Part shown: positions 13,962 through 30,057 of the stretch, piece by piece
Numbering within the stretch: position 1 is the stretch's first letter
Layout: each line of letters starts with the position of its first letter
Origin: Bacteroides sp.
GTDB taxonomy: Bacteria; Bacteroidota; Bacteroidia; Bacteroidales; Bacteroidaceae
Length of the DNA stretch: 43,738 nucleotides
Reading direction: 5' to 3'
Assembly: GCA_015060735.1 (NCBI GenBank)
Contig: SUXX01000012.1
Span: 1-43,738 of the forward strand
Notes under the pieces: generated by a model
The model's input: only the letters and a program-made list of their open reading frames with translations
What the model was told of the DNA's origin: nothing
The model's database searches: none
Translations under genes and position numbers: made by a program

Positions 13962-14021
13962 ATTTTATTTTGTCATTTTTTAAAAAGTATTCTTTTTATA
14001 TACAACTTATTGATTTATTCC

Positions 14022-14046
14022 TATATTTGCAGAATAAAGATTCTGC
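14022..14046 (+). promoter_or_regulatory. -7 box with a 7-bp inverted repeat at the start site (AraC gene)
   Basis: TATATTTG at 14022-14029 fits the -7 consensus. Directly after it GCAGAAT (14029-14035) and ATTCTGC (14040-14046) form a perfect inverted repeat that covers the expected transcription start and ends 3 bases before the ATG. It could be an operator for self-regulation, or a short hairpin hindering translation. Confidence 0.45.
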
Positions 14047-14049
14047 ACT

Positions 14050-14916
14050 ATGAAACACCCCGTTCTTCCTGAACAGCCAACCAATACAAAAATCTTTAAA
14101 CTTTCAGATTTTTGTACGGACAACGAAGTCTTCCACATAGGGCGTGCCAATATCTCGACACGGAAAGACTTGTCCTATCATTCGCACAATTATGCAGAGT
14201 TGTTGTGGATAGAAGAAGGGGAAGGCATACACTATATCAATGGGCACAAGATAAGCATACAGAAGAACGAAATGGTTATGATACGTCCGCAAGACAAGCA
14301 TACGTTCACGTCTACTGGGAAAGGACTGGTTATTCTGAATATTGCTTTCTCCAAACAAACGCTCGACTATCTGAAAAGCCGGTATTTCATCCAATCTAAT
14401 CTGTATTTTTGGACATCTAGTCAGTTACCCTTTCACATAACCATATCCGACAAATTAACCAAACGCTTCTCTGCTCGTGCCGAAGAAGCCATGAAGTACA
14501 AACGAAACAATATCCAGTTGGATAGTCTGCTTCTTTTTATATTTAGGAATTTACAAGAATATGAAGCTGAAAAGCAGGATTCCAAAACTCCTTCTTGGCT
14601 ATTAGATGCTATCCGTAAGTTCAATCAAGGCAATAACTTACGGGAGGGGAATGCCGCATTCGTGGCTTTGTGCGATAGGAATGCCGACTACGTAAACCGA
14701 ATCGTTCGAGACTGTTATCACCAGACATTAACAGACCTTGTTAATGATATTCGAATCAAACATGCAGCCAATCAATTGGCTATAACCAATATGCCTATCA
14801 AATCCATTGCTCATGCCTGCGGATTTTCAAGTTTGGCCGCCTTCTACAAACAATTCAATATCAGGTACAAACAACCTCCTTTGGAATATCGGAAAATGCA
14901 CCAAACCATAGTTTAA
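14050..14916 (+). CDS. AraC-family transcriptional regulator with N-terminal cupin
   Basis: 288 residues. Residues 25-105 look like a sugar-sensing cupin (SYHSHNYAELLWIEEGEGIHYINGH with His/Glu pattern, then MIRPQDKHTF). The C-terminal third holds two helix-turn-helix units, with the second signature IKSIAHACGFSSLAAFYKQF preceding PPLEYRK. It lies 150 bases upstream of, and in the same direction as, the first operon of the polysaccharide locus, so control of that operon by a released sugar is the natural inference. No kinase or sigma factor is near. The gene has its own promoter and is separated from the GH92 gene by a second -7 box, so it is probably not simply part of the operon. Confidence 0.88.
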   Translation: MKHPVLPEQPTNTKIFKLSDFCTDNEVFHIGRANISTRKDLSYHSHNYAELLWIEEGEGIHYINGHKISIQKNEMVMIRPQDKHTFTSTGKGLVILNIAFSKQTLDYLKSRYFIQSNLYFWTSSQLPFHITISDKLTKRFSARAEEAMKYKRNNIQLDSLLLFIFRNLQEYEAEKQDSKTPSWLLDAIRKFNQGNNLREGNAAFVALCDRNADYVNRIVRDCYHQTLTDLVNDIRIKHAANQLAITNMPIKSIAHACGFSSLAAFYKQFNIRYKQPPLEYRKMHQTIV

Positions 14917-15027
14917 CCTTTCTTTTGAAATGTGTTGTAAAACATATTTTCATATAAATGTCGGATTTGAGTAATACTTCCCTTTTTTCAGGTAAACGAA
15001 CACGATGCGAGAACACATATAATCCTT

Positions 15028-15035
15028 TATCTTTG
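15028..15035 (+). promoter_or_regulatory. -7 box (TATCTTTG) of the GH92/glycyl radical operon
   Basis: TATCTTTG lies 31 bases upstream of the first GH92 start. There is no good -33 TTTG, as expected for an activator-dependent promoter. The AT-rich stretch at 14930-14960 just upstream is a candidate activator site. Confidence 0.45.
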
Positions 15036-15066
15036 CAACATCCAATTCATTGACAAAAAAATATTT

Positions 15067-17367
15067 ATGAAGAACTTTTTATTTCTTTTGTTTTTCACTG
15101 GAAGTCTCTTGAGTTGTAACATGCAACCCACTCCTTCCAAATTACAATACGTAGATACTCGAGTTGGCACGGATGCCAGTCACATGCTTACCGCCGGACG
15201 TTTCGGCAAGGGAAGTGAAGAATATGGCCAAACACTACCGGCTGTATTGGAGCCTAATGGCATGAACTTCTGGACACCACAAACTCGCGATACCGAAAAA
15301 AAGTGTATTACCCCATATTATTATCAGGATTCCTTGTTCATGGGATTCCGAAATTCGCATTGGATTGTAGGAGGATGTACCCAGGACTACGGAAGCATGA
15401 CCTTGATGCCAGCCACCGATATTAAAGATTGCCGTCCGATGAAACGAGGACTTTCCTTCAAGCATGACACAGAAATTGCTACACCAGCTTATTACTCCGT
15501 AATGTTGGATCAGGCAAATATGCAGGCCGAAATGACCGGTCGCTCGCGTAGTGCCATTTTTCGTTTGACTTACCCGGCCGATGGCCCTGCCTACCTCATC
15601 GTAAATCCTAATAGCGACGAGGGAGAAGGATATATCGAACTTGATACGCTAAAAAAGGAAATCAGAGGTTACAATCCTATACACCGCATTTATCAAGGTT
15701 GGGGAAAACCGGCAGGGTATAGCGGACACTTCATTATCCGATATAATGATGAGTTGAAAGGATTCGGTACTTATTGTCAAGATACCATTTTTGAAGGACA
15801 AACTCAAATAGGTAAGGCCAAAGGTATTGGTTTATACATTGCCTTTGAAAGACAGAATCCGGAGAAACCAATCATAGTGAAGGCTGCAAGTTCGTTTACT
15901 GGCCAAGAGGGTGCTCGTAAAAATTTGGATGCTGAAATTCCACATTGGGACTTTGAACAGACACGAAACGAGTTGACTGAAATTTGGGAAAAACATTTGG
16001 GACGTGTAGAAGCCACCAGTGTGAATGACACACTTTCTCGCAAACTCTATGGAGCCATTTACAGAGCTTCTTGTTTACCCCGTGTTATCAGTGATGTAGA
16101 TGGACGCTATCCGGCTTTCTCAAAGGGAACTCCTATCATGCAAGCTCCTGAGGGTACCCAGCACTACGATGACTTCTCCATGTGGGATACTTATAGAGCT
16201 TTACATCCGTTGCTCACCTTGCTGACTCCGACTAAGAGTGGTGAAATGATGCAATCACTGGTAGACAAGTACAAACAAGGCGGATGGTTGCCTATCTTCC
16301 CATGTTGGAATAGCTACACCGCAGCCATGATTGGCGATCATTGTACCGCAGCTATCGGCGATGCTTATATCAAGGGAGTACACAATTTCGATATTGAAAC
16401 CGCTTACGAAGGTATGCGGAAGAATGCCTTTGAAACCCCGGAGAACTATGAAGATTATGCCAATGGTATGGGACGACGTGCCTTGAAAAGCTATATGGAA
16501 TATGGATATATTCCTTTGGAAGACCCAGTGAAAGAAGCTTTCCATTCACGCGAACAATCTTCACGTACATTAGAATATGCTTTCGACGACTTCGTTTTGT
16601 CGCAAATAGCAAAAGAATTGCAAAAGACAGAAGATTATAAATTATTGGCTGCCCGTAGCCGTAATTTCAAGAATGTGATCGACCCTCAAACAGGATATGC
16701 CAATGGTAGATACCAAGATGGACGTTTTTATGAAGAAAACAAGACCGACTTCTTTGCTTTCTACATCACCGAAGGAGCACCTTGTCATTACACTTGGTAT
16801 GCTCCACAAGACCCATACGGATTGATGGAAGCCATGAACGGTAAAGATAATTATATTGCCAAACTGGATACATTATTTGAGCAACGCCTCTACTGGCATG
16901 GAAACGAGCCTTGTCATCAAGTAGCTTACATGTATAATTATGTAGGACAACCTTGGAAGACGCAGAAGTATACCCGTCACATCATGGATACAGAATATGG
17001 TGATATCCCAGGTGGATTAGCCGGGAACGACGATGCCGGGCAAATGTCAGCTTGGTACATCTTTAGTAGTCTTGGATTCTATCCAGTATGCCCGGGAAGT
17101 CCTTATTATATTATTGGTAGCCCGCGTATGGAAAAGGTTGTGCTAAACTTGGAAAACGGAAAGAAGTTTGCCATTGAAACAGAGCAAACCGGAACGGATA
17201 ACCGCTACATCCAACAAGCAACTTTGAACGGAAAGCTTTACACAAAGAACTACCTGCATCATAACGATCTAATGCAAGGTGGAACATTGCATTTAATAAT
17301 GGGTGACCAGCCGAACAAGGAATGGGGTAGTAAACCAGAAGATTGTCCACCGGCACTACTTCCCTAA
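15067..17367 (+). CDS. GH92 family glycoside hydrolase, lipoprotein
   Basis: 766 residues beginning with a lipoprotein signal (FTGSLLSC, Cys at about residue 18), so it is probably surface- or periplasm-anchored. The N-terminal beta-sandwich starts YVDTRVGTDASHM. The (alpha/alpha)6 domain holds DDFSMWDTYRALHPL (near 370) and AGNDDAGQMSAWYIFSSLGFYPVCPG (two blocks, near 655-680), both diagnostic of GH92. Known members are Ca2+-dependent exo-alpha-mannosidases cutting alpha-1,2/1,3/1,4/1,6 or phosphate-linked mannose, so an exo-acting inverting enzyme is expected. Mannose specificity is not certain: the locus otherwise points to rhamnose and uronates. First gene of a run whose gaps are 22, -4, 18, 22 and 22 bases. 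Confidence 0.92.
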   Translation: MKNFLFLLFFTGSLLSCNMQPTPSKLQYVDTRVGTDASHMLTAGRFGKGSEEYGQTLPAVLEPNGMNFWTPQTRDTEKKCITPYYYQDSLFMGFRNSHWIVGGCTQDYGSMTLMPATDIKDCRPMKRGLSFKHDTEIATPAYYSVMLDQANMQAEMTGRSRSAIFRLTYPADGPAYLIVNPNSDEGEGYIELDTLKKEIRGYNPIHRIYQGWGKPAGYSGHFIIRYNDELKGFGTYCQDTIFEGQTQIGKAKGIGLYIAFERQNPEKPIIVKAASSFTGQEGARKNLDAEIPHWDFEQTRNELTEIWEKHLGRVEATSVNDTLSRKLYGAIYRASCLPRVISDVDGRYPAFSKGTPIMQAPEGTQHYDDFSMWDTYRALHPLLTLLTPTKSGEMMQSLVDKYKQGGWLPIFPCWNSYTAAMIGDHCTAAIGDAYIKGVHNFDIETAYEGMRKNAFETPENYEDYANGMGRRALKSYMEYGYIPLEDPVKEAFHSREQSSRTLEYAFDDFVLSQIAKELQKTEDYKLLAARSRNFKNVIDPQTGYANGRYQDGRFYEENKTDFFAFYITEGAPCHYTWYAPQDPYGLMEAMNGKDNYIAKLDTLFEQRLYWHGNEPCHQVAYMYNYVGQPWKTQKYTRHIMDTEYGDIPGGLAGNDDAGQMSAWYIFSSLGFYPVCPGSPYYIIGSPRMEKVVLNLENGKKFAIETEQTGTDNRYIQQATLNGKLYTKNYLHHNDLMQGGTLHLIMGDQPNKEWGSKPEDCPPALLP

Positions 17368-17389
17368 ATATCTTTAGCCAACAAGAAAG

Positions 17390-18280
17390 ATGAAAGGTCG
17401 TATCACTTCGCTACAAAGGATGTCTATGCATGATGGTCCCGGCATAAGAACGGTTGTTTTTATGAAAGGATGCAACATGCGTTGCAAATGGTGTCATAAC
17501 CCTGAAACATGGTTGGCTAAGTCCCAAATGCAATACATCGAAGAAAAGTGCATCCATTGCCAAACTTGCTTGATAAGTTGCTCTAAGCAGGCTATCGAAG
17601 TGGTGGACGGACGTATTTCTATTGACTATAGCCGGTGTAGTGCATGCGGAACGTGTGCTGAGAACTGCCCTACGAAAGCGTTATCTATGGTAGGTGAAAC
17701 AATCAGTACAAACGAGCTTTTAGGCAGGATAGAAAAGGATATTCCTTATTTCCGTACCTCGGAAGGTGGCATAACACTTTCAGGAGGAGAGCCACTTCAA
17801 CAAAAAGAGTTTGTCAAAGAATTTATGAAGCTTTGTCGGGAAAAGGAAATCCATATAGCTATCGAAACAAATCTGTCGGCTTCGTGGGAGACCATCGAAG
17901 AACTGCTCCCTTTGGTAAATCTATGGATGTGTGATCTCAAACTATACGATACAGACAAGCATCAGCATTGGACTGGAATTGGGAATGAATCCATTCTTCA
18001 AAATATCAGGAAAATGGGAGAAAGGAAGATTCCTATGATCGTTCGTACACCTGTCATTCCACGAGTGAACGATACCGAAGAAGAAATAGAAAAGATTTGC
18101 CGGTTTTTGGCTCCTTTTGCCGATTCCATTTCTTACGAACTGTTGGGCTTTCATACTTTAGGTTTTCAGAAATACGAATCATTGGGCATGCCTAACGAGT
18201 TGAAGGAAGAAGAAGGCTTGTCTAAAGAACGATTAAATGCATTAAAACAAATTCTCATTAAATACCATTTTATATCATGA
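17390..18280 (+). CDS. Glycyl-radical-enzyme activating protein (radical SAM)
   Basis: 296 residues. The radical SAM motif CNMRCKWC (Cys28, Cys32, Cys35) binds the [4Fe-4S] cluster that cleaves S-adenosylmethionine. A ferredoxin-like insert follows with two CxxCxxCxxxC sets (Cys54/57/60/64 and Cys83/86/89/93) for two extra clusters, as in activases of glycerol dehydratase and choline lyase rather than of pyruvate formate-lyase. TLSGGEPL (about 126) is the GGE motif. It installs the glycyl radical on its partner under anaerobic conditions. The stop overlaps the start of the partner gene (ATGA), implying coupled translation. Cytoplasmic. Confidence 0.93.
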   Translation: MKGRITSLQRMSMHDGPGIRTVVFMKGCNMRCKWCHNPETWLAKSQMQYIEEKCIHCQTCLISCSKQAIEVVDGRISIDYSRCSACGTCAENCPTKALSMVGETISTNELLGRIEKDIPYFRTSEGGITLSGGEPLQQKEFVKEFMKLCREKEIHIAIETNLSASWETIEELLPLVNLWMCDLKLYDTDKHQHWTGIGNESILQNIRKMGERKIPMIVRTPVIPRVNDTEEEIEKICRFLAPFADSISYELLGFHTLGFQKYESLGMPNELKEEEGLSKERLNALKQILIKYHFIS

Positions 18281-20415
18281 ACCAATTATTGGAAGACAAA
18301 ATCAAAGCCCTACGTTCTAAAAAGATAGAACAAACCAAAGAAAAAATTAGGGTAGAAGGCATTCTGGATGAAGATGACTATGGACGTGTAGTTCCTCCTG
18401 CCAACTCTTGGAATATTATCCCGAACCACGAAGACGGCTCGTTCTATGGCTTTGATGCATGGACAGAAAACTTCTGTAACCTGATGGAAGTACATCCGGT
18501 CTATGTAGACACCAACGATGCTTTTGCCGGACGATGGATGTATTTTATGTCGAAGATGAAGAAGAACAAATGGAATCCTGCATACCCTTATGATGATTTG
18601 AAACCAAACATCGAAAAGTACAACATCATCTGTGGTATCGGTGAAGATGCTCACTTCGCCCCTGACTTCCAAATTGGTTTGACATTGGGATGGGATGGCT
18701 TGATTCAGAAGATAGAAAGATACAAGCAAATCAATAACACCCCGGAGCAGTTACATTTCTATGACCTGCACATTCGAGGCATTCAGGCCGTTCAAGGTTG
18801 GATACAAAGACACATCGACAAGATGGAAGAAATGCACGCATCCGAAGAAGATGAAGCTACCAGACAACATCTGAAAGAAATGATCGAAACCAACCTGTGG
18901 GTAAAGAATCATCCTCCAAGAACCTTACGCGAAGCTTGTCAATGGATTATCTGGTATCATTTGGCATCACGCACCTACAATAGAGATGGAGCAGGTGGAC
19001 AGATTGATGCTTTGCTTCAACCCTACTATGAAAAAGACATGGCTGAAGGAAGAATTACTGACGAAATTGCCGTTTACTACTTGGCTTGTTTCCTCATCAA
19101 CGACCCAATTTATTGGCAATTGGGAGGACCTGATAAAGATGGGAACGACCAAACTTCACGCATTTCTTTCTTGATTCTCGAAGCAGCAGACAAAATCAAT
19201 ACTTCTTTAAACCTAACCGTCAGAGTATACGATGGGTTGAATAAGGATTTACTTCGCAAGTCGGTGGAATATTTGATCAAGAACAAGAACGGCTGGCCAC
19301 GTTTCTCTGGCGACAAGGCTTTGGTTAGTGGATTTATGAAGAACGGTTATAGTGCCGAACTAGCCCGTCAACGTATAGCTGTAGGATGTAACTGGATGTC
19401 CTTACCGGGATTGGAATATACCCTGAACGACTTGGTCAAGGTAAACATTGCCAAAGTGTTCGAAGTGGCTTATCAAGAAATGCTTCAGCAAGAGACCTAT
19501 TCCACAAGCTTGTTGTGGGAAATCTTTAACAAGCACTTGGCTATTGCCGTACAAACAGCAGGCGATGGTATAAGACATCATCTGAAATACCAAAAATACA
19601 ACGAGCCGGAACTCATTCTGAACTTGTTAAGCCATGGCCCGATAGAAAAAGGTTGCGACGTATCCGATGGTGGTGCCACTTACTACAACTTGTCCATCGA
19701 TGGTGCCGGTCTTGCCATTGCTGCCGATTCATTTGCGGCATTGGAGCAACGTATCGAGAAGGAAAAGAAATTATCTTGGGAAACAGTAATCGATGCGGTC
19801 GCATCCAACTATACATGCGAAGGCGGAGAAATCGTTCGCCATGTCTTAAAGAACAGTGAGCACTATGGAACCGAAGGCTCAATTGGAGAAAAATGGGCCA
19901 TGCAGATTCGCGATTTGTTCGTTGATCTCGTCAAGGGACAATCAGCAGGTAATTACCTGTTCATCCCCGGATTCTTCTCATGGGCCAACACCATTGAATT
20001 CGGTGAAAAGGTACAGGCTACCCCGAATGGTAGAAAAGCAGGCGAACCTATCGCACACGGAGCCAATCCGGTTCCCGGATTTGCAACAGATGGTGCCTCG
20101 CTTGCATTGGCTTCCTCCATTGCCAAAATTCAACCAGGATATGGCAATACAGCTCCGATGCAGTGGGAACTCGACCCGACCTTTGCCAAGGAAAACCATA
20201 TCGAAATTATCGAAGCCATAATCAAGACTCACGTCGAATTGGGAGGAACCTTGATTAATGTAAACATCATGGACAAGGAGACCGTACTGGCCGCTCATAA
20301 GAACCCGGCAGCCTATCCCGAACTTGTGGTCAGAGTAACCGGTTTTACCGCTTATTTCTCGATGTTGTCTCCTAAATTCAGACAATTGGTAGTAGACAGA
20401 CTTTTGGAAAACTAA
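18277..20415 (+). CDS. Glycyl radical enzyme of unassigned substrate
   Basis: 712 residues, shorter than pyruvate formate-lyase (about 760) and glycerol dehydratase (about 790). The C-terminal radical loop VRVTGFTAYFSMLSP is intact, with the radical glycine at residue 689. The thiyl cysteine is Cys371 in IAVGCNWMSLPG. Most dehydratase/lyase relatives read GCVEP here, with Glu as the acid-base residue; this enzyme has Trp at the Glu position. In the next segment ..YTLNDLVKVN.. the Asp of the relatives' WHDAAFFN is kept and the His is Asn. So it is not a standard propanediol, glycerol, choline or hydroxyproline enzyme, and lacks the Cys-Cys of pyruvate formate-lyase. No microcompartment genes are present. 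Its place between GH92 genes suggests a sugar-derived substrate; the reaction is unknown. Confidence 0.9.
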   Translation: MNQLLEDKIKALRSKKIEQTKEKIRVEGILDEDDYGRVVPPANSWNIIPNHEDGSFYGFDAWTENFCNLMEVHPVYVDTNDAFAGRWMYFMSKMKKNKWNPAYPYDDLKPNIEKYNIICGIGEDAHFAPDFQIGLTLGWDGLIQKIERYKQINNTPEQLHFYDLHIRGIQAVQGWIQRHIDKMEEMHASEEDEATRQHLKEMIETNLWVKNHPPRTLREACQWIIWYHLASRTYNRDGAGGQIDALLQPYYEKDMAEGRITDEIAVYYLACFLINDPIYWQLGGPDKDGNDQTSRISFLILEAADKINTSLNLTVRVYDGLNKDLLRKSVEYLIKNKNGWPRFSGDKALVSGFMKNGYSAELARQRIAVGCNWMSLPGLEYTLNDLVKVNIAKVFEVAYQEMLQQETYSTSLLWEIFNKHLAIAVQTAGDGIRHHLKYQKYNEPELILNLLSHGPIEKGCDVSDGGATYYNLSIDGAGLAIAADSFAALEQRIEKEKKLSWETVIDAVASNYTCEGGEIVRHVLKNSEHYGTEGSIGEKWAMQIRDLFVDLVKGQSAGNYLFIPGFFSWANTIEFGEKVQATPNGRKAGEPIAHGANPVPGFATDGASLALASSIAKIQPGYGNTAPMQWELDPTFAKENHIEIIEAIIKTHVELGGTLINVNIMDKETVLAAHKNPAAYPELVVRVTGFTAYFSMLSPKFRQLVVDRLLEN

Positions 20416-20433
20416 TAATACCTATCTGTAAAT

Positions 20434-20853
20434 ATGAATCTTATCGAAATATACAAGCACGAAAAAGAAGGCTACGATCCTTCTTTCATCAGCGACGGAT
20501 GGCAAGTAGCTTTCCTGAATTATGCCGAAGCCGAAACCTTGGAGTGTATCGAGAAGTTAGACATACACTATCTGACCGACGAGGTTTTTGTACTCTTGAA
20601 TGGCACTGCCGTATTGATTGCAGCCGACATTCAAGACAACCAAATCAGTTACGATCTAATCAACATGCAACCGGGTATTATCTACAACATCCCGAAAAAC
20701 ACTTGGCATAAGATAGCCATGTACGAAGGAAGCAAGGTGTGTATTGTGGAGAAAACAAACACTCACCTCGGCGATTTCGAATTCTACAATTTGTCAGAAG
20801 AGCAAAAAGCAGACCTACGTCGTGCTGTTAACCAACTAATCACAGAAAAATAA
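20434..20853 (+). CDS. Small cupin protein linked to the glycyl radical enzyme
   Basis: 139 residues forming one cupin barrel. The first cupin motif is DIHYLTDEVFVLLNG (His45, Glu50, then six residues to Gly57) and the second is IPKNTWHKI (His92). Metal ligands are therefore probably His45, Glu50 and His92, with Asp43 in the place of the other usual His. There is no signal peptide, so it is cytoplasmic, in the same compartment as the radical enzyme 18 bases upstream. Likely roles by family are sugar isomerase/epimerase, dehydratase or small-molecule binding. A direct metabolic link with the radical enzyme is inferred from gene order. Confidence 0.8.
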   Translation: MNLIEIYKHEKEGYDPSFISDGWQVAFLNYAEAETLECIEKLDIHYLTDEVFVLLNGTAVLIAADIQDNQISYDLINMQPGIIYNIPKNTWHKIAMYEGSKVCIVEKTNTHLGDFEFYNLSEEQKADLRRAVNQLITEK

Positions 20854-20875
20854 TCACTTACAAATATCCCAACCT

Positions 20876-23563
20876 ATGAAGAAATTATTCCAATCAAGTC
20901 TTTTGATTCTATCGGTACTTTGCTTCATCTCCTGTTCTGAGAAAGGAACACAGAATGCTGATGGACAGCGAGCATTTGCCGATTACGTAGACACCCGTTA
21001 CGGAGCCGAAGCCTGGAAGGGTAAATCAACCCTCAGTACTCCCGAAGAGCCCAAAGGCTTTGTATATCCGGGGGTAGGGCATACCAATCCGATGATGCAA
21101 CTCACTCCTCAGACGGTAAAGACCGACAGACCCTATTATTCTTCGGACCCTTTGCTTCAAGGTTTCCGCGCCAGCCACTACCCTAACGGTACCGCCATGT
21201 CCGAATATGGAGCCATTACCATCATGCCTTTGGTAGGTGAGCTGAATGCCCGTCCGCACGAACGTGCCTCCGACTATTCGCACGACAAGGAAATAGCTAA
21301 GCCTTATTATTATTCGGTGATGTTGGAAGACTACAACATCCAGACCGAATTGACAGGTGTATCGAAAGCCGGCATCTTGCGATTTACTTTCCCGGCTTCC
21401 GAGCAAGCACATATCGTAATTGACAATCCTCGTAGTGAATTCGAGAACTTCTTCCGTGTAATTCCGGAAAGAAACGAAATCGAAGGTTATATTACAAACG
21501 CCGGACGTGTGGGTAATCAAGGATACACCGGACGTGAATTTGCCAGCTACTTCGTGGCTCGTTTCGACAAGCCATTCGAAGTGTATGGTGTGACTCCCGA
21601 ACCAGAATATGGTCCTAACCCTATTCTGTTTCCTGAAGGCTTGAAAGGCGAATATTTTGCTAACAATCGCTGGGAAGGTACTCCAGTGGTTACTCGAGTG
21701 GACGAAGATGTGAACTTCTATTGGGAAGGAGAACCGGCCAAGGGTGTTCCTGCCGACCGATTCTCGGTGAGATACACCGGTAAATTTAAAGCTAGAGCTA
21801 CCGGCAAACACATCTTCTATGCTATTACTGATGATTATGTCCGTCTGCACATCAACGGGAAGACCGTTATCGATTCGAAGAAGACTCGCAGAGTGATGCC
21901 TGACCTCTACTCTATTCAGCTAAAAGCCGGTGATGAACTCGATGTCCAAATGGAGTATGCAGAGAACACTCGCGACGCTACCATGCACCTAGGTGTACTT
22001 GAACCCGAGACACGTACCGCTGAAAAATTGGCTAAGATGGCTCAGAAAGGCTCCGAAGCCTCAGGTGTGTACATCTCGTTCAAGACCAAGGAGAACGAAC
22101 AAGTTAACATGAAGGTCGGTACCTCATTTATCCACTTCAACCAAGCACGAGCCAATCTGGATGCAGAAATCGGTTCAAAGAACTTTGATCAGATCGCTGC
22201 ACTTGGCAAAGAAACTTGGAATAAGGCCATCGGTAAAATCCAAATAGAAAGTACCGAACGTAACAAGGAAATTTTCTACACCGCCATGCAACGTGTGCAA
22301 CTCACACCGCGTCAGTTTACCGAAGACGGTTACCATTATAGTGCCTTCAACGGGAGAGTGATGCCGGGTATCATGTACACCGATTTCTCGCTTTGGGATA
22401 CTTTCCGTGCCTTGCACCCATTGCTTATCTTCCTCGATCCAGATAAGGTGAACGACATGATTGAAGCTTTGCTCAATTCCTACGACGAAGGTGGCTGGAT
22501 TCCCAAATGGCCTAGTCCGGGCTATTCTAACATCATGCACGGTACCCATGGTGACGCCGTGATTGCCGATGCATACGTCAAAGGTGTCCGTGGTTACGAT
22601 CACGAAAAGGCTCTCGAAGCCATGATGAAGAACGCCACTCAACCGGGAACCGGACACTACATTGCTCGTCTGGGTATTCAGGATTTCATCAAGTTGGGAT
22701 ATGTTCCAACCGACAAATGGGGTGAATCTGTTATCCGTACTTTGGAGTTCTCATACGATGACTTCTGTATTGCTCAGATGGCCAAATTAATGGGCAAGGA
22801 AGACATTTATAACGATCTGATGAAGCGTTCAATGAACTACATCAACGTGCTCGATCCTGAAACCAAGTTTATCCGCGGACGCAACAGCGATGGTACTTGG
22901 CGAGACAAGAAAGACCAAGCCATTAGCTCATGGGCACGCGGTACAGAAAGAGACCGTGATACTTATTATCGTAACATCACTTATTTCGTACCTCACGATG
23001 TACAAGGTTTGGCCAACTTCATGGGAGGCAATAAACAATTGGAAGAACATTTGGACTATTTCTTTGCTAACGAGTACTACTATGTAGGCGATGAATTCTC
23101 CATGCATTCACCTTATTTGTACAACTACATCGGTGCTGCCTGGAAAACTCAAAAGCTCATCCGCGAACTGCTTACCGACAACTTCACCAACGAATTCGGC
23201 GGTTTGCCGGGTAACGAAGACTGTGGTCAGCTTTCAGCTTGGTACATCTTTGGTGCCATGGGATTCTATCCTACCTGTCCAAGTGTGCCTACTTATCAGA
23301 TTGGTAGTCCGATGTTCGATAAGGTGACAATGTCTTTGCCTAATGGTAAAACATTCCAGGTAATCGCTAATAACAACAAACCTGAAAATGTATACATCCA
23401 GTCGGCTACTTTGAACGGAAAACCATACACCAAGTCATGGATTCACCACGACGACATCATGAATGGCGGTAACATTACATTCGAAATGGGCCCTAAGCCT
23501 AATAAAGAATGGGGATGCAAACCGGAAGATATCCATCCTTCCATTAGCAAACCAATCAACTAA
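20876..23563 (+). CDS. GH92 family glycoside hydrolase with inserted PA14 domain, lipoprotein
   Basis: 895 residues, lipoprotein signal SVLCFISC. GH92 landmarks: YVDTRYGAEAW at the mature N-terminus, TDFSLWDTFRALHPL (near 505) and GNEDCGQLSAWYIFGAMGFYP (near 785). Residues about 254-374 form a PA14 domain (LKGEYFANNRWEGTP, ARATGKHIFYAITDDYVRLHINGKTV, then LKAGDELDVQMEY). PA14 is a beta-barrel often used for carbohydrate binding. It is inserted inside the GH92 N-terminal beta-sandwich, at a point where the paralog at 15067 has only a short loop. The two GH92 genes flank the glycyl radical module and may cut successive or different linkages of one glycan. Confidence 0.92.
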   Translation: MKKLFQSSLLILSVLCFISCSEKGTQNADGQRAFADYVDTRYGAEAWKGKSTLSTPEEPKGFVYPGVGHTNPMMQLTPQTVKTDRPYYSSDPLLQGFRASHYPNGTAMSEYGAITIMPLVGELNARPHERASDYSHDKEIAKPYYYSVMLEDYNIQTELTGVSKAGILRFTFPASEQAHIVIDNPRSEFENFFRVIPERNEIEGYITNAGRVGNQGYTGREFASYFVARFDKPFEVYGVTPEPEYGPNPILFPEGLKGEYFANNRWEGTPVVTRVDEDVNFYWEGEPAKGVPADRFSVRYTGKFKARATGKHIFYAITDDYVRLHINGKTVIDSKKTRRVMPDLYSIQLKAGDELDVQMEYAENTRDATMHLGVLEPETRTAEKLAKMAQKGSEASGVYISFKTKENEQVNMKVGTSFIHFNQARANLDAEIGSKNFDQIAALGKETWNKAIGKIQIESTERNKEIFYTAMQRVQLTPRQFTEDGYHYSAFNGRVMPGIMYTDFSLWDTFRALHPLLIFLDPDKVNDMIEALLNSYDEGGWIPKWPSPGYSNIMHGTHGDAVIADAYVKGVRGYDHEKALEAMMKNATQPGTGHYIARLGIQDFIKLGYVPTDKWGESVIRTLEFSYDDFCIAQMAKLMGKEDIYNDLMKRSMNYINVLDPETKFIRGRNSDGTWRDKKDQAISSWARGTERDRDTYYRNITYFVPHDVQGLANFMGGNKQLEEHLDYFFANEYYYVGDEFSMHSPYLYNYIGAAWKTQKLIRELLTDNFTNEFGGLPGNEDCGQLSAWYIFGAMGFYPTCPSVPTYQIGSPMFDKVTMSLPNGKTFQVIANNNKPENVYIQSATLNGKPYTKSWIHHDDIMNGGNITFEMGPKPNKEWGCKPEDIHPSISKPIN

Positions 23564-23585
23564 TCATTTTATATATTAAATAATT

Positions 23586-25022
23586 ATGATACGAAATATT
23601 GCAAAAATTTTATTTGTAAGCTTATTACTATTGACTGCTACAGTCGTTAAAGCCGAAAAAATAATTACTGTTACCGACATGAATGTTGTCGGTGACGGTA
23701 CTACCCTAAATACAAAAGCCATTCAAAAGGCCATCGATTTTGCCCATGCACAAAAAGGTGGTGGTTGCGTAGTTTTTCCAAAAGGAAAATACCTAACTGG
23801 TACTTTGGTCATGAAGTCAAATGTTACACTTAAGATTGAAAAGGATGCGGTCATTCTGGGTAGCACCAATCCATACGACTATTATGCACTCGAAGAAACC
23901 AAAGGTAAGGATAACTCGGCTTTGGCACTGATTGTTGCCGATAAGGTTCAAAACATCAAGATCATTGGCGAAGGCCTGATTGATGGTAACGGACGTGAGT
24001 TGGCTTTGAACATCGATAGCTTGCATCACATTGGCGAACGCGTAGACCCTAACTATACCACTCGTCTGAATCGTCCGAACGAGACCATGCGTCCCAAACT
24101 GTTCTTCATGTCGAATAGCGAAAATATCCTTGTCGAAGGGCTTCAACTCAAGAACAGTGCCTGCTGGGGGTTGTCGTTTGACCGTTGCAACAACCTTACC
24201 TTGAAATATCTTTATTTTGAAAACCGTGCTTATTGGAACAACGATGGCATCGATGTGACCGATGGCAAGCATGTACGCATCTCGCATTGTTACATAAACT
24301 CGGCCGACGATGGTATTTGCTTGAAGTCCTATCACGTAGGTGAGTATTGTGATGACATCGAGATTTCTGATTGTGAAATCATCAGTAGTGCCAGTGCCGT
24401 GAAGTTTGGTACAGCTTCATGGGGGGGCTTCAAGAACATCATCGTTCGTAATATCAAGGTGAAAGATACTTATCGTTCAGCCATCGCCATCGAATGTGTA
24501 GATGGTGGACATATCGACAATGTTTTGGTGGACAACATCCATGCCGAAAATACCGGCAATGCCATCTTCATTCGCTTGGGACATCGATATAACGAAAAGC
24601 CGGGCACATTGAAGAATGTGACTATCCGCAACCTTTATGTAGACATCCCATTCGGGCGTCCGGACGAAGGATACGACATGTATGGCCCTGCCCTTAGTTT
24701 CTTCCACAATCCTATTCCTAGTTCCATTACCGGTATCCCAGGACATTGTGTGGAAAATGTCACACTCGAGAACATCGAAGTTCTCTGTCCGGGTAAAGCA
24801 AGCAAGGGTATGGCCTATGTCCCACTGAGTCGCATTGATAAAATACCTGAAAACATCAACAAGTATCCGGAGTTCTCTATGTTTGGCGAGTTGCCGGCCT
24901 ATGGTATTTTTGTGCGTCACGTCCGTGGCTTAAAAATGAAGAATGTACAATACAAATTAAAAGCACATGATTTCCGCCCACCGTATGTTTTTGACGATGT
25001 GGAAGGATTGGAACAACTTTAA
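23586..25022 (+). CDS. GH28-like right-handed beta-helix glycosidase
   Basis: 478 residues with a signal peptide (ILFVSLLLLTATVVKA), hence exported. Residues 28-60 carry the pectin-lyase-fold opening MNVVGDGTTLNTKAIQKAID. The GH28 (polygalacturonase) triad of Asp is present: Asp220 in NNDGID and Asp241/Asp242 in SADDGICLKS, spaced 21 residues as in canonical enzymes. Where polygalacturonases have the catalytic GHG, this protein has SASAVKFG (268-275), and the substrate-binding RIK is replaced by YRSAIAI. It is therefore a divergent member, perhaps acting on a rhamnose/uronate linkage rather than plain homogalacturonan. Last gene of the operon that starts at 15067. Confidence 0.87.
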   Translation: MIRNIAKILFVSLLLLTATVVKAEKIITVTDMNVVGDGTTLNTKAIQKAIDFAHAQKGGGCVVFPKGKYLTGTLVMKSNVTLKIEKDAVILGSTNPYDYYALEETKGKDNSALALIVADKVQNIKIIGEGLIDGNGRELALNIDSLHHIGERVDPNYTTRLNRPNETMRPKLFFMSNSENILVEGLQLKNSACWGLSFDRCNNLTLKYLYFENRAYWNNDGIDVTDGKHVRISHCYINSADDGICLKSYHVGEYCDDIEISDCEIISSASAVKFGTASWGGFKNIIVRNIKVKDTYRSAIAIECVDGGHIDNVLVDNIHAENTGNAIFIRLGHRYNEKPGTLKNVTIRNLYVDIPFGRPDEGYDMYGPALSFFHNPIPSSITGIPGHCVENVTLENIEVLCPGKASKGMAYVPLSRIDKIPENINKYPEFSMFGELPAYGIFVRHVRGLKMKNVQYKLKAHDFRPPYVFDDVEGLEQL

Positions 25023-25329
25023 TCTATTTTACATAATTTAAGGGTTCCCGAAGACAAAAGGTGCAGCTTTTGAGGAGGTAGAGCGTTCCGTAAAACGCTG
25101 TACCTAAGTCTTCTTATACTTTTTAACAAAAATATTAAGACATATTTTACATAGTTTTGAGAGTGTGATAAATTAAATGAGTACGAATCTCCAATACCTA
25201 TTTGCCTATGGAACAAGCCGGATAAATGATAAAATTTAAATGATGAGTCAATAAGATTCATAAATAATTGAGATTCAATGAATAGTGAATGCACACTGTT
25301 TATAAACCTATATAATCTTACAAAAAGAT
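25023..25329. promoter_or_regulatory. Leader/intergenic region before susC with hairpin and candidate promoter
   Basis: 307 bases without a gene. A hairpin at 25076-25105 (12-bp stem, one mismatch, loop CCGTAA) followed by a T-rich stretch may end the upstream operon. TAGTTTTG at 25152-25159 matches the -7 consensus and would give a leader of about 165 bases, but no -33 TTTG is seen. The rest is AT-rich with no small ORF I would support. Confidence 0.45.
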
Positions 25330-28300
25330 ATGAAATTAAATTATTTTAACTTAACAAGGGGAGGGGGTAAACCTGCCATAAAGACAATCTCCTCAAGTGG
25401 AAAGATGATGGCTACATGTATGTTAGTCTCTTCTCTCTCACTTTCAGCAGCTGCATCAGTGAATCCTGCTGAATTATCTACTGAAACAACAAACGCTGTT
25501 TTACAAGCAGATAAAATTACAGTTACCGGTGCCGTATTTGATGAAAATAACGAACCTGTAATTGGTGCAAACGTAACTGAAGTTGGTACCACTAACGGTA
25601 TCATTACTGATTTCGACGGTAACTTTACTTTGAATGTAGCTAAGGGTAGCTCTATTCAAATTTCATACATCGGTTATCAAACTCAAACGATCAAGGTGAC
25701 AAGTAATCAAAAACTTGTTATTAACTTGGAAGTTGACAGACAATCATTGGACGAAGTAGTTGTAGTAGGTTATGGTAGTGTTAAGAAACAAAACTTGACT
25801 GGTTCTGTATCTAAGATTACAGATGAATCGATGACAGACCGCCCTATCGCTACTTTGGGTGAAGCTTTCCAAGGTCAATTAGCCGGCGTTAGCTCTGCAT
25901 CCAGTGGTGGTGGTCTTCCGGGTGAAGAACTTTCTATCCGTATCCGTGGTATCAACACCATTAACGGTACCAGCAATCCACTTTACGTAATCGATGGTGT
26001 ACCTCGCGACAATATGAGTGATCTTAACCCATCGGACATTGCGTCTATCCAAGTATTGAAAGATGCTTCTTCTACAGCTATCTACGGTTCCCGTGGTGCT
26101 AGCGGTGTTATCTTGATTGAAACCAAACAAGGTAAGGGTAAGCCATCTGTTACATTTGATGCATACTATGGTTTCCAGAATGCAGAAAGAACTATGGATT
26201 TGTTGGAAGCAGAAGAATACGTAGCTTTCAATATGTATCGTAGGAACTTGGCTCACTTGCGTGAAGGTGGTTCGATGAAGGATCCAATGTCTGCAAGAAA
26301 GTCAGCAAATCGCATTCCAGACTGGTGGGCTACTACTACAGAATTTACCAACTGGCAACAAGAAATGCTTCAATCAGCTCCTATCCAGAACTACCAAGCT
26401 TCTGCTTCTGCTAAGGCTGATATGGGTAGCATCTTTTTCTCTGTAGGTTACTTGGATCAAGAAGGTATCATTGTTGGTTCTGATTTCAACAAGGTAAACG
26501 CTCGTTTGAATGCTTCTTTGAACATCAGTAAGAACTTCCGCATTGGTTTGAACATGGGTGCTTCTCGTTCAGTACAAAACACCGGTGGCGGTGGTGCCAA
26601 GGAATCTCCTATTCACCATGCATTGATGGAATCACCATTGATTGGTTTGGACGAAGCAACTCGTGATCAAGGAATTCCATCTGCAGACGAAGTCGGTGAA
26701 GCATACATTAACCCTTATTTGCGTGCAAAGAATACTTTGAACCAAAACGAATACACACGTATCAATGCCTCTATCTGGGCTGAGTACGATATCATGGAAG
26801 GTTTGAAGTTCAAGACTCAGTACAGCAATACTTACGATGGCTTTAAGAACGAGTATTTCGTTCCTGGAAAGTACAACTACAACTCAGCTAAGACAGAAGG
26901 TAGCAGCAGCTCTTCTAGAACTGACAGTTGGACTCTCCAAAACACATTGACTTACGACAAGACTATCGCAGAAAAGCACGTATTCAACTTCTTATTAGGT
27001 CAAAGTGCAGAAAAGCAAAGCTATTACGACATCAGTGCCAAAGCAACAGACTGGCCATACGATAACTTGAACACATTGAATTTGGCTGCAACTCCAACTG
27101 CTGCTTCTACATCAAAAACTGCATACACTAATGCTTCTTTCTTCGGCCGTGTTAGCTATAACTTCGACGAAAAGTATTTGATTACTGCCAGCATTCGTCG
27201 TGACGGTTCTTCACGTTTCGGTCGCAACAGTAAGTGGGGTACTTTCCCTGCAGTATCTGCTGGTTGGAAGATCAATGAAGAAGCTTTCTTGAAGGATGTA
27301 GACTGGATTTCATTGTTGAAACTTCGTGCATCATGGGGTAAGGCAGGTAACGATAACATCGGTGGTAACTATCCATCAGTAGCAGCTTTGGGTACATACA
27401 CTACATCATGGAACAATGCATTGGTTTCAGGTGCTGCTCCATCTAACATGCCTAACGAAGATTTGCAATGGGAAGCAACCAAGTCTTTGAACTTCGGTTT
27501 CGACTTCTCTGCATTCCAAAACCGTTTGCAAGTGAATGTTGACTACTATATCAACAACACTGACAACTTGTTGTTCTCTATGCCTATTCCTCAAACAACA
27601 GGTTTCGGTTCATACACTACTAACATCGGTAATGTACGCAATACAGGTATCGAATTGGACATCACTTCTCATAACATCAACAAGGGTGACTTCAAGTGGA
27701 CTACTAACTTGAACTTGTCTCACAACAAGAACGAAGTTACTGACATGGGTGGCCAAAAAGAATTGATCGTTTCTTCATGGAGCCAACGCTATAAGACAGA
27801 AATCGGTAAGCCTCTCAGCCAATACTTGGCATACAAGAGTGACGGTTTCTTGACACCAGACTGCTTTGACGCTAACGGTAAGGCTATCGTTCCTATCTTG
27901 GCTGGTCAAGAAGAAGGTAACCCAAGATATGTAGACCAAAACGGCGACGGTAAGATTACTACTGACGACCAAGTAGTTTGCGGTAACAACTTGCCAGACG
28001 TAACATTCGGTTTCACTAACAAGTTCTCTTACAAGAACTTCGAATTGAGCGTATTGTTGCAAGGCCAATTGGGTGGCGAAGTTATGTACATCGGTGCTCG
28101 TCACAACGACATCGCTTCTAACCGTAACACTTACAAGCACTGGTTGACTAGCTACAAGCCTGATTTTGAAGCTTTGTATGGTCCTGGTGAAAACCCAATT
28201 CCAGAAGAATACATCAAGAAGCACGGTATCGACATGAGTTGGGACGGTAAGACAGGTTATGCTTACGGTCAAGCTGGTGGTGGTGTTGCTGATGACCGTC

Positions 28301-28557
28301 GTATCTACGATGCAACATACTTGCGTATCAAGAACATTACCCTTAGCTACACATTGCCAAAGAACCTTCTTAACAAGACTTTGTTGAGCAGTGCACGTAT
28401 CTATGGTTCTGTTGACAACGTATATACATTTACAGATTATCCAGGTTTCACTCCTGAATCTAATACAAACGGTAGCGGTGCAACAAGAATGGGTGTAGAC
28501 TATAGTACTTATCCATTGAGCCGTCGTTTCATCATGGGTGTTAACTTAGTATTCTAA
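25330..28557 (+). CDS. susC: SusC/RagA-type TonB-dependent outer-membrane transporter
   Basis: 1075 residues. After a signal region (hydrophobic 27-44, preceded by an unusually long basic stretch) come a CarboxypepD_reg-like domain (VTGAVFDENNEPVIGANV, about 65-145) and the SusC hallmark DEVVVVGYG before the plug domain (SVSKITDE..., IRIRGINTINGTSNPLYVIDG). The rest is a large beta-barrel ending in an aromatic-rich strand (RRFIMGVNLVF). It imports oligosaccharides using TonB energy and works with SusD, 21 bases downstream. There is no N-terminal STN domain, so it does not signal to an anti-sigma factor. Codon use (GGT, GCT, AAC, TTG) is more biased than in the neighbours, suggesting strong expression. 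Confidence 0.97.
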   Translation: MKLNYFNLTRGGGKPAIKTISSSGKMMATCMLVSSLSLSAAASVNPAELSTETTNAVLQADKITVTGAVFDENNEPVIGANVTEVGTTNGIITDFDGNFTLNVAKGSSIQISYIGYQTQTIKVTSNQKLVINLEVDRQSLDEVVVVGYGSVKKQNLTGSVSKITDESMTDRPIATLGEAFQGQLAGVSSASSGGGLPGEELSIRIRGINTINGTSNPLYVIDGVPRDNMSDLNPSDIASIQVLKDASSTAIYGSRGASGVILIETKQGKGKPSVTFDAYYGFQNAERTMDLLEAEEYVAFNMYRRNLAHLREGGSMKDPMSARKSANRIPDWWATTTEFTNWQQEMLQSAPIQNYQASASAKADMGSIFFSVGYLDQEGIIVGSDFNKVNARLNASLNISKNFRIGLNMGASRSVQNTGGGGAKESPIHHALMESPLIGLDEATRDQGIPSADEVGEAYINPYLRAKNTLNQNEYTRINASIWAEYDIMEGLKFKTQYSNTYDGFKNEYFVPGKYNYNSAKTEGSSSSSRTDSWTLQNTLTYDKTIAEKHVFNFLLGQSAEKQSYYDISAKATDWPYDNLNTLNLAATPTAASTSKTAYTNASFFGRVSYNFDEKYLITASIRRDGSSRFGRNSKWGTFPAVSAGWKINEEAFLKDVDWISLLKLRASWGKAGNDNIGGNYPSVAALGTYTTSWNNALVSGAAPSNMPNEDLQWEATKSLNFGFDFSAFQNRLQVNVDYYINNTDNLLFSMPIPQTTGFGSYTTNIGNVRNTGIELDITSHNINKGDFKWTTNLNLSHNKNEVTDMGGQKELIVSSWSQRYKTEIGKPLSQYLAYKSDGFLTPDCFDANGKAIVPILAGQEEGNPRYVDQNGDGKITTDDQVVCGNNLPDVTFGFTNKFSYKNFELSVLLQGQLGGEVMYIGARHNDIASNRNTYKHWLTSYKPDFEALYGPGENPIPEEYIKKHGIDMSWDGKTGYAYGQAGGGVADDRRIYDATYLRIKNITLSYTLPKNLLNKTLLSSARIYGSVDNVYTFTDYPGFTPESNTNGSGATRMGVDYSTYPLSRRFIMGVNLVF

Positions 28558-28578
28558 TAAAAAAAGTATTTTAAAGAT

Positions 28579-30057
28579 ATGAAAAATTATATTAAATCAA
28601 TTGCACTTTCAGCTTTCTGCTTGACTTCGGTAGCGTTTACTGGTTGTGAAGATTTCTTGACAGAAGATCCACAATCACAGTATTCTGCTGACACTTTCTA
28701 CAAGCAAGACTCTGACTTTGAATTTGCTATTGCAGGTGTATATGCACAGCAACAAGGTATGTTCGCTTATAGCGGTGGTGCCATCCGTCTTCCAATCACT
28801 CGTGCTGACGAATTAGTAGTTGGTGCAGGCTATTGCGACGAAAATGATACATTTACAGACAATGGTTCTGGCTCGGTAATCCCTGGATATTGGAATTCAC
28901 TTTATTCAATGATCTACAGATGTAATGCCATTTTGGAAAAGATTGATGACGTAGAATTTAAGGATGCTAAAAAGAAGAGTAATATCAAGGGTGAAGCTTT
29001 GGTACTTCGTGCTTGGGCATACTACAATTTGGGTATCAACTTCGGTGGTGTTCCATTGATTGACAAGACTCTTTCTACTCCAGAAACTAAGAAAATTGCT
29101 CGTTCTACACAAACAGAAACTTTAGCCTTCGCAGCAAACGACTTCAATGCTGCTGTTGATTTGCTTCCTACTGAATGGACAGGCAATAATTTGGGTCGTG
29201 TAACTAAATATGCTGCTATGGCTGGTTTGGCACGTTTGTACATGTTCCAATCAGACTTCAGCAAGGCTGCTCCTCTTTTGAAGAGCATTATCGACTCTGG
29301 CAAATATGCAATGGCTGACAATTACGTAGATTGCTTTGACGATGCATTCGACAACACAGAAGAACGCGTATGGGAAGTTCAATTCATGACCGGTGGTTTG
29401 GGCGAAGGTAACACATTCTGTGCTTCTTGGTTGCCAGCTGGTTATGTCGGTGATTTCGGTCCTTGGCCAGGTTCATCTGCATCACAACCTGTATCAACAG
29501 ACTTCGTAAATGCTTACGAAGAAGGTGACTTGCGTAAGGATGCATCAATTGTAACAAACCTTGTTGTAGGTTCTGAACCTAAAGACGACTGGTACGTTAA
29601 AAAGTTCTTGAAATATACAGCTACTCCTGTTAACCACGACGACTTTGGCTATAACATGCCAATCGTACGTTATACAGACGTTATCATGATGTATGCTGAA
29701 TGTTTGAACGAAGCTGGTTACACTGCTGATGGTGAAGCATTTACTTTGATCAACAAGGTACGTGAACGTGCAGGTTTGGCTCCTTTGACAGCTGCTACAA
29801 CTCCTGACCAAGCTGCATTCCGCAAGGCTATCATGCAAGAACGCCGTGTAGAATTCGCATTCGAAGGCTTGCGTTGGTGGGACCTTGTACGTTGGGATAC
29901 AGCTTTGGAAGTAATGAATAACTTCTTGAAGCAAAGCGAAAACAAGAATGGTACTTACCAAATGGGTAGTAACGATCGCAAGATCTATGCAATCCCAACT
30001 ACTGAAATTGACCGTTATGGTGATACTTCAGTCATGTGGCAAAACCCTGGCTATTAA
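28579..30057 (+). CDS. susD: SusD/RagB-type surface glycan-binding lipoprotein
   Basis: 492 residues. The lipoprotein signal SVAFTGC places the lipidated Cys at about residue 23, followed by EDFLTEDPQSQYSADTFY, the typical SusD start. A helical TPR-like core has ALVLRAWAYYNLGINFGGVPL, and the C-terminus has the conserved MQERRVEFAFEGLRWWDLVRW. It forms the lid of the SusC transporter and captures oligosaccharides at the cell surface. It follows susC by 21 bases and shares its strong codon bias. A hairpin follows at 30074-30115. Confidence 0.97.
   Translation: MKNYIKSIALSAFCLTSVAFTGCEDFLTEDPQSQYSADTFYKQDSDFEFAIAGVYAQQQGMFAYSGGAIRLPITRADELVVGAGYCDENDTFTDNGSGSVIPGYWNSLYSMIYRCNAILEKIDDVEFKDAKKKSNIKGEALVLRAWAYYNLGINFGGVPLIDKTLSTPETKKIARSTQTETLAFAANDFNAAVDLLPTEWTGNNLGRVTKYAAMAGLARLYMFQSDFSKAAPLLKSIIDSGKYAMADNYVDCFDDAFDNTEERVWEVQFMTGGLGEGNTFCASWLPAGYVGDFGPWPGSSASQPVSTDFVNAYEEGDLRKDASIVTNLVVGSEPKDDWYVKKFLKYTATPVNHDDFGYNMPIVRYTDVIMMYAECLNEAGYTADGEAFTLINKVRERAGLAPLTAATTPDQAAFRKAIMQERRVEFAFEGLRWWDLVRWDTALEVMNNFLKQSENKNGTYQMGSNDRKIYAIPTTEIDRYGDTSVMWQNPGY

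Follow-up and report, generated by a model that had tools for sequence, protein, structure and literature searches.

The subject of this analysis is a three-gene run encoding a radical-SAM activase, a glycyl radical enzyme (GRE) and a small cupin, found in a polysaccharide utilisation locus of Bacteroides sp. (GenBank assembly GCA_015060735.1, contig SUXX01000012.1, positions 1 to 43,738, forward strand). That whole stretch of 43,738 nucleotides is called the window below. The coordinates of the open reading frames (ORFs) confirm that the three genes form a tight run: the activase and GRE genes overlap by 4 bases, an 18-base gap separates the GRE from the cupin, and a 22-base gap separates the cupin from the next gene, which belongs to glycoside hydrolase family 92 (GH92). 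The order given in the initial annotation, with GH92 genes on both sides and then GH28, SusC/SusD and GH78, was likewise found correct by Pfam searches and, for SusC and SusD, by recognition from sequence. The genes are as follows.

14050..14916, + strand: AraC-family regulator, upstream of the operon (Pfam HTH_18 and AraC_binding)
15067..17367, + strand: GH92 lipoprotein of subclade GH92a (Pfam GH92, 554.7 bits; lipoprotein from a signal sequence seen by eye)
17390..18280, + strand: radical-SAM GRE activase, 296 aa (Pfam Radical_SAM and ferredoxin domains; NCBIfam TIGR02494, 350 bits against a cut-off of 174)
18277..20415, + strand: GRE, 712 aa (Pfam PFL-like, 324.8 bits; Gly_radical, 53.3 bits)
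20434..20853, + strand: cupin, 139 aa (without a Pfam match; named from its match to 3d0j in sequence and fold)
20876..23563, + strand: GH92 with a PA14 insert, subclade GH92b (Pfam)
23586..25022, + strand: GH28 (Pfam GH28, 79.6 bits)
25330..28557, + strand: SusC-like TonB-dependent transporter (ORF recognised from sequence, with no family search)
28579..30057, + strand: SusD-like lipoprotein (ORF recognised from sequence, with no family search)
30154..32787, + strand: GH78 alpha-L-rhamnosidase (Pfam Bac_rhamnosid6H, 290.7 bits)

This arrangement is not due to chance, because in other genera, too, the GRE is found together with homologues of the activase and the cupin. The SusC-like ORF clusters with SusC-like ORFs from seven other loci, and the SusD-like ORF belongs to a cluster (c8) that spans four loci.

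The 712-aa protein was identified here as a member of the GRE superfamily by its PFL-like and Gly_radical domains, its neighbouring activase, and its cysteine and C-terminal glycine loop. It has Trp373 where C-x-E GREs carry a glutamate two residues past the thiyl cysteine, and C371-N372 where pyruvate formate-lyase (PFL) has its adjacent cysteine pair. All 12 NCBIfam matches fell below their curated cut-offs, the best being TIGR01774 with 258 against 678 bits. The closest solved protein by sequence was E. coli PflD (E 1.4e-49), which was also the closest fold to the structure model (pLDDT 78.8) in a Foldseek search (E 3.2e-33, TM 0.82 on the query, 21% identity). A tree was computed from 18 sequences of the family and 19 GREs outside it; the family rows were monophyletic with support of 100/100 on a stem of 4.8 changes per site, and since a tool warning pointed to possibly misplaced long branches, monophyly and distance alone are used. 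As judged from its sequence, the GRE is a deep clade of its own, outside every assigned GRE subfamily tested. The earlier expectation that it would fall in an unassigned cluster was thus borne out, both by the separate clade and by the scores below all NCBIfam cut-offs.

The motif GCNW around Cys371 was present in all 18 family rows of the tree. At the same site C-x-E was found in 16 of the 17 non-PFL reference GREs (the exception, L100, has GCVV), and neither PFL row has a GC motif. C371, N372, W373 and Gly689 were invariant in a 23-row alignment (A1), which leaves out three members cut by contig ends (L015, L020, L026). The glycyl loop reads RVTGF, RITGF or RCTGF in the family (RVTGF around Gly689 in the window) and RV(A/S)GY in most references. 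In an alignment with B12-independent glycerol dehydratase (GDH), C433 corresponds to C371, H164 to H126, D447 to D385 and E435 to W373; the GDH residues have catalytic roles that we take to be as generally described. The GRE is therefore like the glycerol and propanediol dehydratases in its fold and in keeping the cysteine and the counterparts of H164 and D447, and differs from them in Trp373 for Glu435 and in its low score for TIGR01774. No microcompartment genes were recognised by eye near the GRE, where they were not searched for. As a separate observation, plasmid pPP4 of Persicobacter carries a second, very divergent GRE of 737 aa with the motif GCGE (L103:1536-4662), flanked by an activase on one side and a phytanoyl-CoA dioxygenase-like gene on the other, with a malectin-domain protein adjoining.

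GRE loci were patchily spread among the genomes searched. In the phylum, a full-length match was found in the window's own genome alone of 395, and eight others gave matches of at most 154 bits in the C-terminal part; in the family the own genome was the one positive of 201; in the order, 4 of 393 genomes were positive, one of them being L007 again. A scan of genome contigs gave 26 loci, 25 at 60-99% identity. L028, a partial match of 31%, was left out of the family, and G1124 was dropped because its contig is that of L007. L010 carries the label Chlorobiota, and the other 24 of the 25 come from Bacteroidota lineages. Two more loci were found on plasmid records (Flammeovirga kamogawensis and Persicobacter psychrovividus) and two more in G800 and G1096; a scan of viral contigs found nothing. 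The resulting 30 loci (L003-L027, L058, L059, L061, L062 and the window) are not independent, since five are from Flammeovirga and the GRE of L025 is nearly identical to that of the window. Compared over window positions 13999-29998, this goat-colon relative (L025) shows 64-81% identity across AraC, GH92a and the activase, a jump to 95-100% within the GRE gene near 18500, and mostly 94-100% thereafter through cupin, GH92b and SusC, with dips near 24500-25500 and from 29000 on. The jump near 18500 is a recombination boundary as read from this alignment.

In every one of the 28 uncut loci an activase gene stood no more than 1.2 kb from the GRE; the other two of the 30 are truncated at the GRE. 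L019 has its activase on the opposite strand, past AraC. Of the 30 loci, 25 have the cupin, which lies 2 kb away in L062, and two of the five without it are cut. An AraC homologue was present in 18 of 30. Residues D43, H45, E50 and H92 of the cupin were invariant in a 21-row alignment (A2) and are a candidate metal site. The sole near match of the cupin in the fold search was 3d0j (TM 0.91), a protein of unknown function.

Alpha-mannosidase genes were a recurrent part of the neighbourhood. GH92 or GH47 lay within about 2 kb of the GRE in 20 of 30 loci, GH92 being present in 13 (within about 2 kb in 11) and GH47 in nine. The GH47 neighbour exceeds the Pfam gathering score (387.9 against 22.9 bits). 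Nine GRE genomes were searched for GH47: six had a single strong match, and in all six it adjoins the GRE; one had a weak fragment match and two had none. The chance of six such coincidences within 10 kb is about 2e-17, or about 1e-8 if three lineages are counted, a rough figure that places a single GH47 at random and ignores the choice of the nine genomes. In the phylum GH47 occurred in 24 of 247 genomes, and no cupin stood beside it in the 14 loci read of those 24. Eight of the nine GRE-linked GH47s, from Flammeovirga, Persicobacter and Bacteroidales, formed one clade (100/100); because the Labilibaculum GH47 falls outside it, GH47 must have joined the GRE cluster at least twice. A comparison of GRE-linked and free GH47s showed differences, with no nameable catalytic change. 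In the GH92 tree, from which the fragmentary GH92 of L020 is absent, the GH92a clade (97/89) held seven rows, all from GRE loci, and the GH92b clade (100/100) held ten, six from GRE loci and four from the type B clusters described below; none of the 37 other GH92 rows fell inside either. GH92b has Lys or Arg at a position where other GH92s carry Trp. In two loci (L004:2907-8156 and L006:2897-8161) an ORF of about 1750 aa contains two GH92 modules, which in L004 are joined by a PL4-type domain resembling a carbohydrate-binding module.

Sugar permeases also repeat beside the GRE, with a RhaT-like protein in 10 of 30 loci and a XylE-type porter in two. The RhaT-like neighbours, like the RhaT L-rhamnose/H+ symporters, belong to PF06379, and their best match is NF010022; however, in 4 of 4 tested they scored 333-350 bits, below the equivalog cut-off of 369, which the RhaT of the own genome's rhamnose operon passes with 373 bits. 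In five of 12 genomes searched the copy in the GRE locus is the sole RhaT copy. In L004:12576-17501 and L006:12556-17511 a RhaT-like permease, GH92 and GH28 share one frame of 1645-1651 aa (Pfam-checked for L004), which is a predicted permease-glycosidase fusion beside the GRE; in L003:12566-13624 RhaT runs into GH92 at the contig end.

The initial annotation had noted that no standard rhamnose or uronate enzyme lies in the locus, in agreement with the window data, and the same genome carries them elsewhere: contig C82 has RhaI, RhaD and RhaT above cut-offs and a RhaK-like kinase just below, and contig C21 has glucuronate isomerase and mannonate dehydratase above cut-offs. GH28 was found in four of 30 loci, or four of 23 when only loci with 4.5 kb or more of downstream flank are counted, and GH78 occurred in the window and the near-identical L025 alone (two of the 19 loci with 9.5 kb or more downstream), the latter count being a weak test as GH78 sits at the edge of the flank. 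The expected conservation of the neighbourhood thus held for glycosidases and sugar permeases in general and failed for GH28 and GH78, and the supposed link to rhamnose or uronate was not upheld. These sugars were rejected as first choice of substrate because their core enzymes lie elsewhere in the genome and GH28 is not conserved.

The cupin led to a second kind of cluster, termed type B. The cupin occurred in two of 296 phylum genomes (the own genome and G334) and in four of 149 genomes of family f6, where no GRE was present on the loci read; a type B cluster away from the GRE was found in three of 12 GRE genomes searched. Eight type B loci were compared (L041, L051-L054, L105-L107), with families named on some and carried over to others by BLAST; no GRE was seen on the loci read. 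Cupin, GH38, a sugar porter, an RraA-like protein and a short-chain dehydrogenase (SDR) resembling sugar-1-dehydrogenases were present in 8/8, a UxuA-like dehydratase in 7/8, a lactonase in 6/8, GH92 in 4/8, and in 2/8 each GH76-like genes and the pair of a 2-keto-3-deoxygluconate (KDG)-kinase-like protein with 2-keto-3-deoxy-6-phosphogluconate (KDPG) aldolase, the aldolase passing its cut-off (374 and 354 against 275 bits). Genes unusual beside sugar genes also occur: an SBP_bac_1-like protein and an enoyl-CoA hydratase in 5/8 (L051, L054, L105-L107), and a CaiB-like gene (CoA-transferase family III) in 4/8, with none in L054.

The simplest reading of the type B clusters is that a manno aldose would be oxidised to the aldonate, dehydrated to KDG and split. 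This non-phosphorylating oxidation, NAD-linked by its enzyme families, is like the GRE clusters in its cupin, alpha-mannosidase context and GH92b, and unlike them in having no radical enzyme; the gene linkages, and the cupin and GH92 subclade common to both, were computed here. Since KDG kinase phosphorylates O6, and the aldolase cuts between C3 and C4, the sugar would be expected to have unsubstituted hydroxyls at C4 and C6, which would leave D-mannose itself or a C2/C3-substituted D-mannose. Since alpha-mannosidases recur beside the GRE and the companion cupin ties it to a cluster draining to KDG, the sugar of the GRE is most likely D-mannose-configured. Two candidates were set aside: 6-deoxy- or 6-O-methyl-mannose is disfavoured, since the KDG-kinase-like protein and KDPG aldolase of two type B clusters need a free O6, and mannosylglycerate was dropped, since it leaves the lactonase and UxuA-like genes unexplained.

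We give about an even chance to the reading that the GRE catalyses the committed step in the breakdown of an aldose of D-manno configuration, acting by C-O elimination on the free sugar. The substrate class, a mannose-type sugar, is fairly well supported; that the substrate has the D-manno configuration is likely, and C-O elimination is, with some reserve, the probable chemistry. O-substitution of the substrate at C2 or C3, for example by methyl, is possible but doubtful. A MtaA/CmuA-like methyltransferase, found downstream of the GRE cluster in two of 30 loci below its family cut-off (L016:12593-13624 and L024:8916-9944), would fit an O-methyl sugar, which is only a hint. The earlier suggestion, that a sugar released from the glycan undergoes an oxygen-sensitive step, stays the best reading in view of the unassigned GRE clade and the recurrent glycosidases and sugar permeases.

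From this context we infer which sugar is used, what the permease carries, what the cupin does, and the C-O elimination with its position. Secreted alpha-mannosidases (GH92, elsewhere GH47) would free a mannose-type sugar, which a monosaccharide permease (RhaT-like, XylE-type or another member of the major facilitator superfamily) would take up unphosphorylated. The cupin most likely acts on the sugar before the pathways diverge, because it is common to both clusters; it would work ahead of the GRE and may be a ring-opening enzyme or a mutarotase. The activase would place the radical on Gly689, from which Cys371 would become a thiyl radical and abstract hydrogen from a carbon of the ring or chain, with C2 or C1 as the favoured sites, and the neighbouring C-O bond would break. 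The product would be a deoxy-keto sugar or deoxy-lactone, formed without NAD. If the hydrogen is taken from C2 and the C3 substituent leaves, a 3-deoxy-2-keto sugar would form, which corresponds to KDG as an aldehyde analogue; if it is taken from C1 and the axial substituent of C2 leaves, the result would be a 2-deoxy-lactone. The GRE may thus replace the SDR, the lactonase and perhaps the dehydratase, as an anaerobic radical counterpart of the type B route. More specifically, and tentatively, we propose that a new class of GRE lacking the C-x-E glutamate may eliminate a C2 or C3 O-substituent (water, or methanol from O-methyl-mannose) of an unphosphorylated mannose-type aldose, an NAD-free radical entry for anaerobes that would run alongside the dehydrogenase-lactonase-mannonate dehydratase route. 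If true, radical chemistry would stand where glycan catabolism begins in bacteria of the gut, the rumen and the sea, and there would be a second way of building an eliminating GRE without the usual glutamate. The radical and the NAD-type cluster occur together in three genomes, as a two-pathway system that apparently serves one sugar; Labilibaculum filiforme has the two kinds of cluster.

Several results weigh against this reading. Neither GH92 nor GH47 was found in nine of the 30 loci (L007-L012, L016, L019, L061), and these are not just short contigs, because five of them (L007, L009, L010, L016, L019) are flanked by 10 kb on each side. Six of 19 GH92 rows from GRE loci, and one of five from type B, fell outside GH92a and GH92b; proximity to GH92 is by itself weak in the own genome (G000), because its 2.4 Mb assembly has 17 GH92 genes, a heavy load of alpha-mannosidases. 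GH92a and GH92b deviate at positions that other GH92s conserve, and an unusual substrate is possible for them. The RhaT family normally moves L-rhamnose. In the GRE the catalytic glutamate of C-x-E enzymes is replaced by Trp, and the model was not used for docking because its active-site loop has pLDDT below 50. In type B, the UxuA-like and KDG-kinase-like proteins are below curated cut-offs, and in the GRE clusters the enzyme acting after the GRE was not recognised. Mannose-6-phosphate isomerase-like genes are present in 13 of 16 GRE genomes, which would make a GRE hardly necessary for plain D-mannose and a substituted mannose the likelier substrate.

Among known enzymes, PflD cleaves 1,5-anhydromannitol-6-phosphate and YbiW is a 1,5-anhydroglucitol-6-phosphate lyase, both converting anhydro-hexitol phosphates to 1-deoxyfructose-6-phosphate after import by the phosphotransferase system (PTS), according to PMC12441222. 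Structure titles among our fold matches also name anhydro-hexitol phosphate ligands of PflD/YbiW. Ma et al. 2024 is reportedly the source for this reaction. The GRE shares with these enzymes a PFL-like fold, a radical-SAM activase and, probably, action on a sugar derivative. However, PflD and YbiW have C-x-E and use 6-phosphates, whereas the window GRE has GCNW, lies on another branch and has non-PTS permeases and mannosidases alongside; E. coli pflD stands among the frw PTS genes, whereas no PTS gene was recognised by eye near the GRE, where no family search was made. The GRE family resembles PflD/YbiW in probably working on a sugar but, from its different clade and the lack of C-x-E, is not a member. 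No description of this GRE family was found in titles and the starts of abstracts, and none of the type B clusters was recognised; subscription papers lay mostly outside both searches.

What the GRE acts on could be read in other ways. That it cleaves an unphosphorylated compound of the 1,5-anhydromannitol type, in the fashion of PflD/YbiW, would agree with PflD as best match in sequence and fold and with the manno configuration. We consider this improbable, as the GRE family lies far outside the PflD/YbiW branch without C-x-E, and among the neighbours, inspected by eye without a family search, no gene for a PTS, a glucan lyase or an anhydrofructose reductase was recognised. Rather unlikely, though less so, is action on a partner sugar uncovered by the mannosidase, such as a uronic acid, a 6-deoxy sugar or another aglycone. 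The RhaT-like permeases (including the sole-copy cases), the GH28 and GH78 of the window, and the Lys/Arg of GH92b, which could bind a charged neighbour, argue for such a sugar; against it, the Flammeovirga and Persicobacter clusters have GH47 as the glycosidase adjoining the GRE operon, type B reaches KDG through a UxuA-like enzyme, and the own genome has its core enzymes for rhamnose and uronate at other sites.

A different radical reaction on a mannose-type sugar (C2 epimerisation, isomerisation or C-C cleavage) is unlikely. Trp in the catalytic Glu position together with the absent dehydrogenase suggests non-canonical chemistry, and a one-step product entering glycolysis would explain the cupin as sole companion. 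Yet the GRE lacks the adjacent cysteines of PFL and keeps D385 and H126 of eliminating enzymes, and we know of no GRE epimerase or isomerase. Least probable, and very much so, is that the operon is a passenger in glycan loci, for example a general anaerobic fermentation enzyme. The mannosidase-free loci, five with 10 kb on both sides, and the patchy spread (1/201 family and 4/393 order genomes) would suit a passenger, but not the sole-copy GH47 linkage in six genomes with at least two GH47 recruitments, the adjoining RhaT-GH92-GH28 frame, or the cupin and GH92b common to a second sugar pathway.

Further along the window, on the - strand, an arabinose/fucose isomerase-like protein (36613-38040), below NCBIfam cut-offs, adjoins a divergent GH78-like protein (34004-36577).

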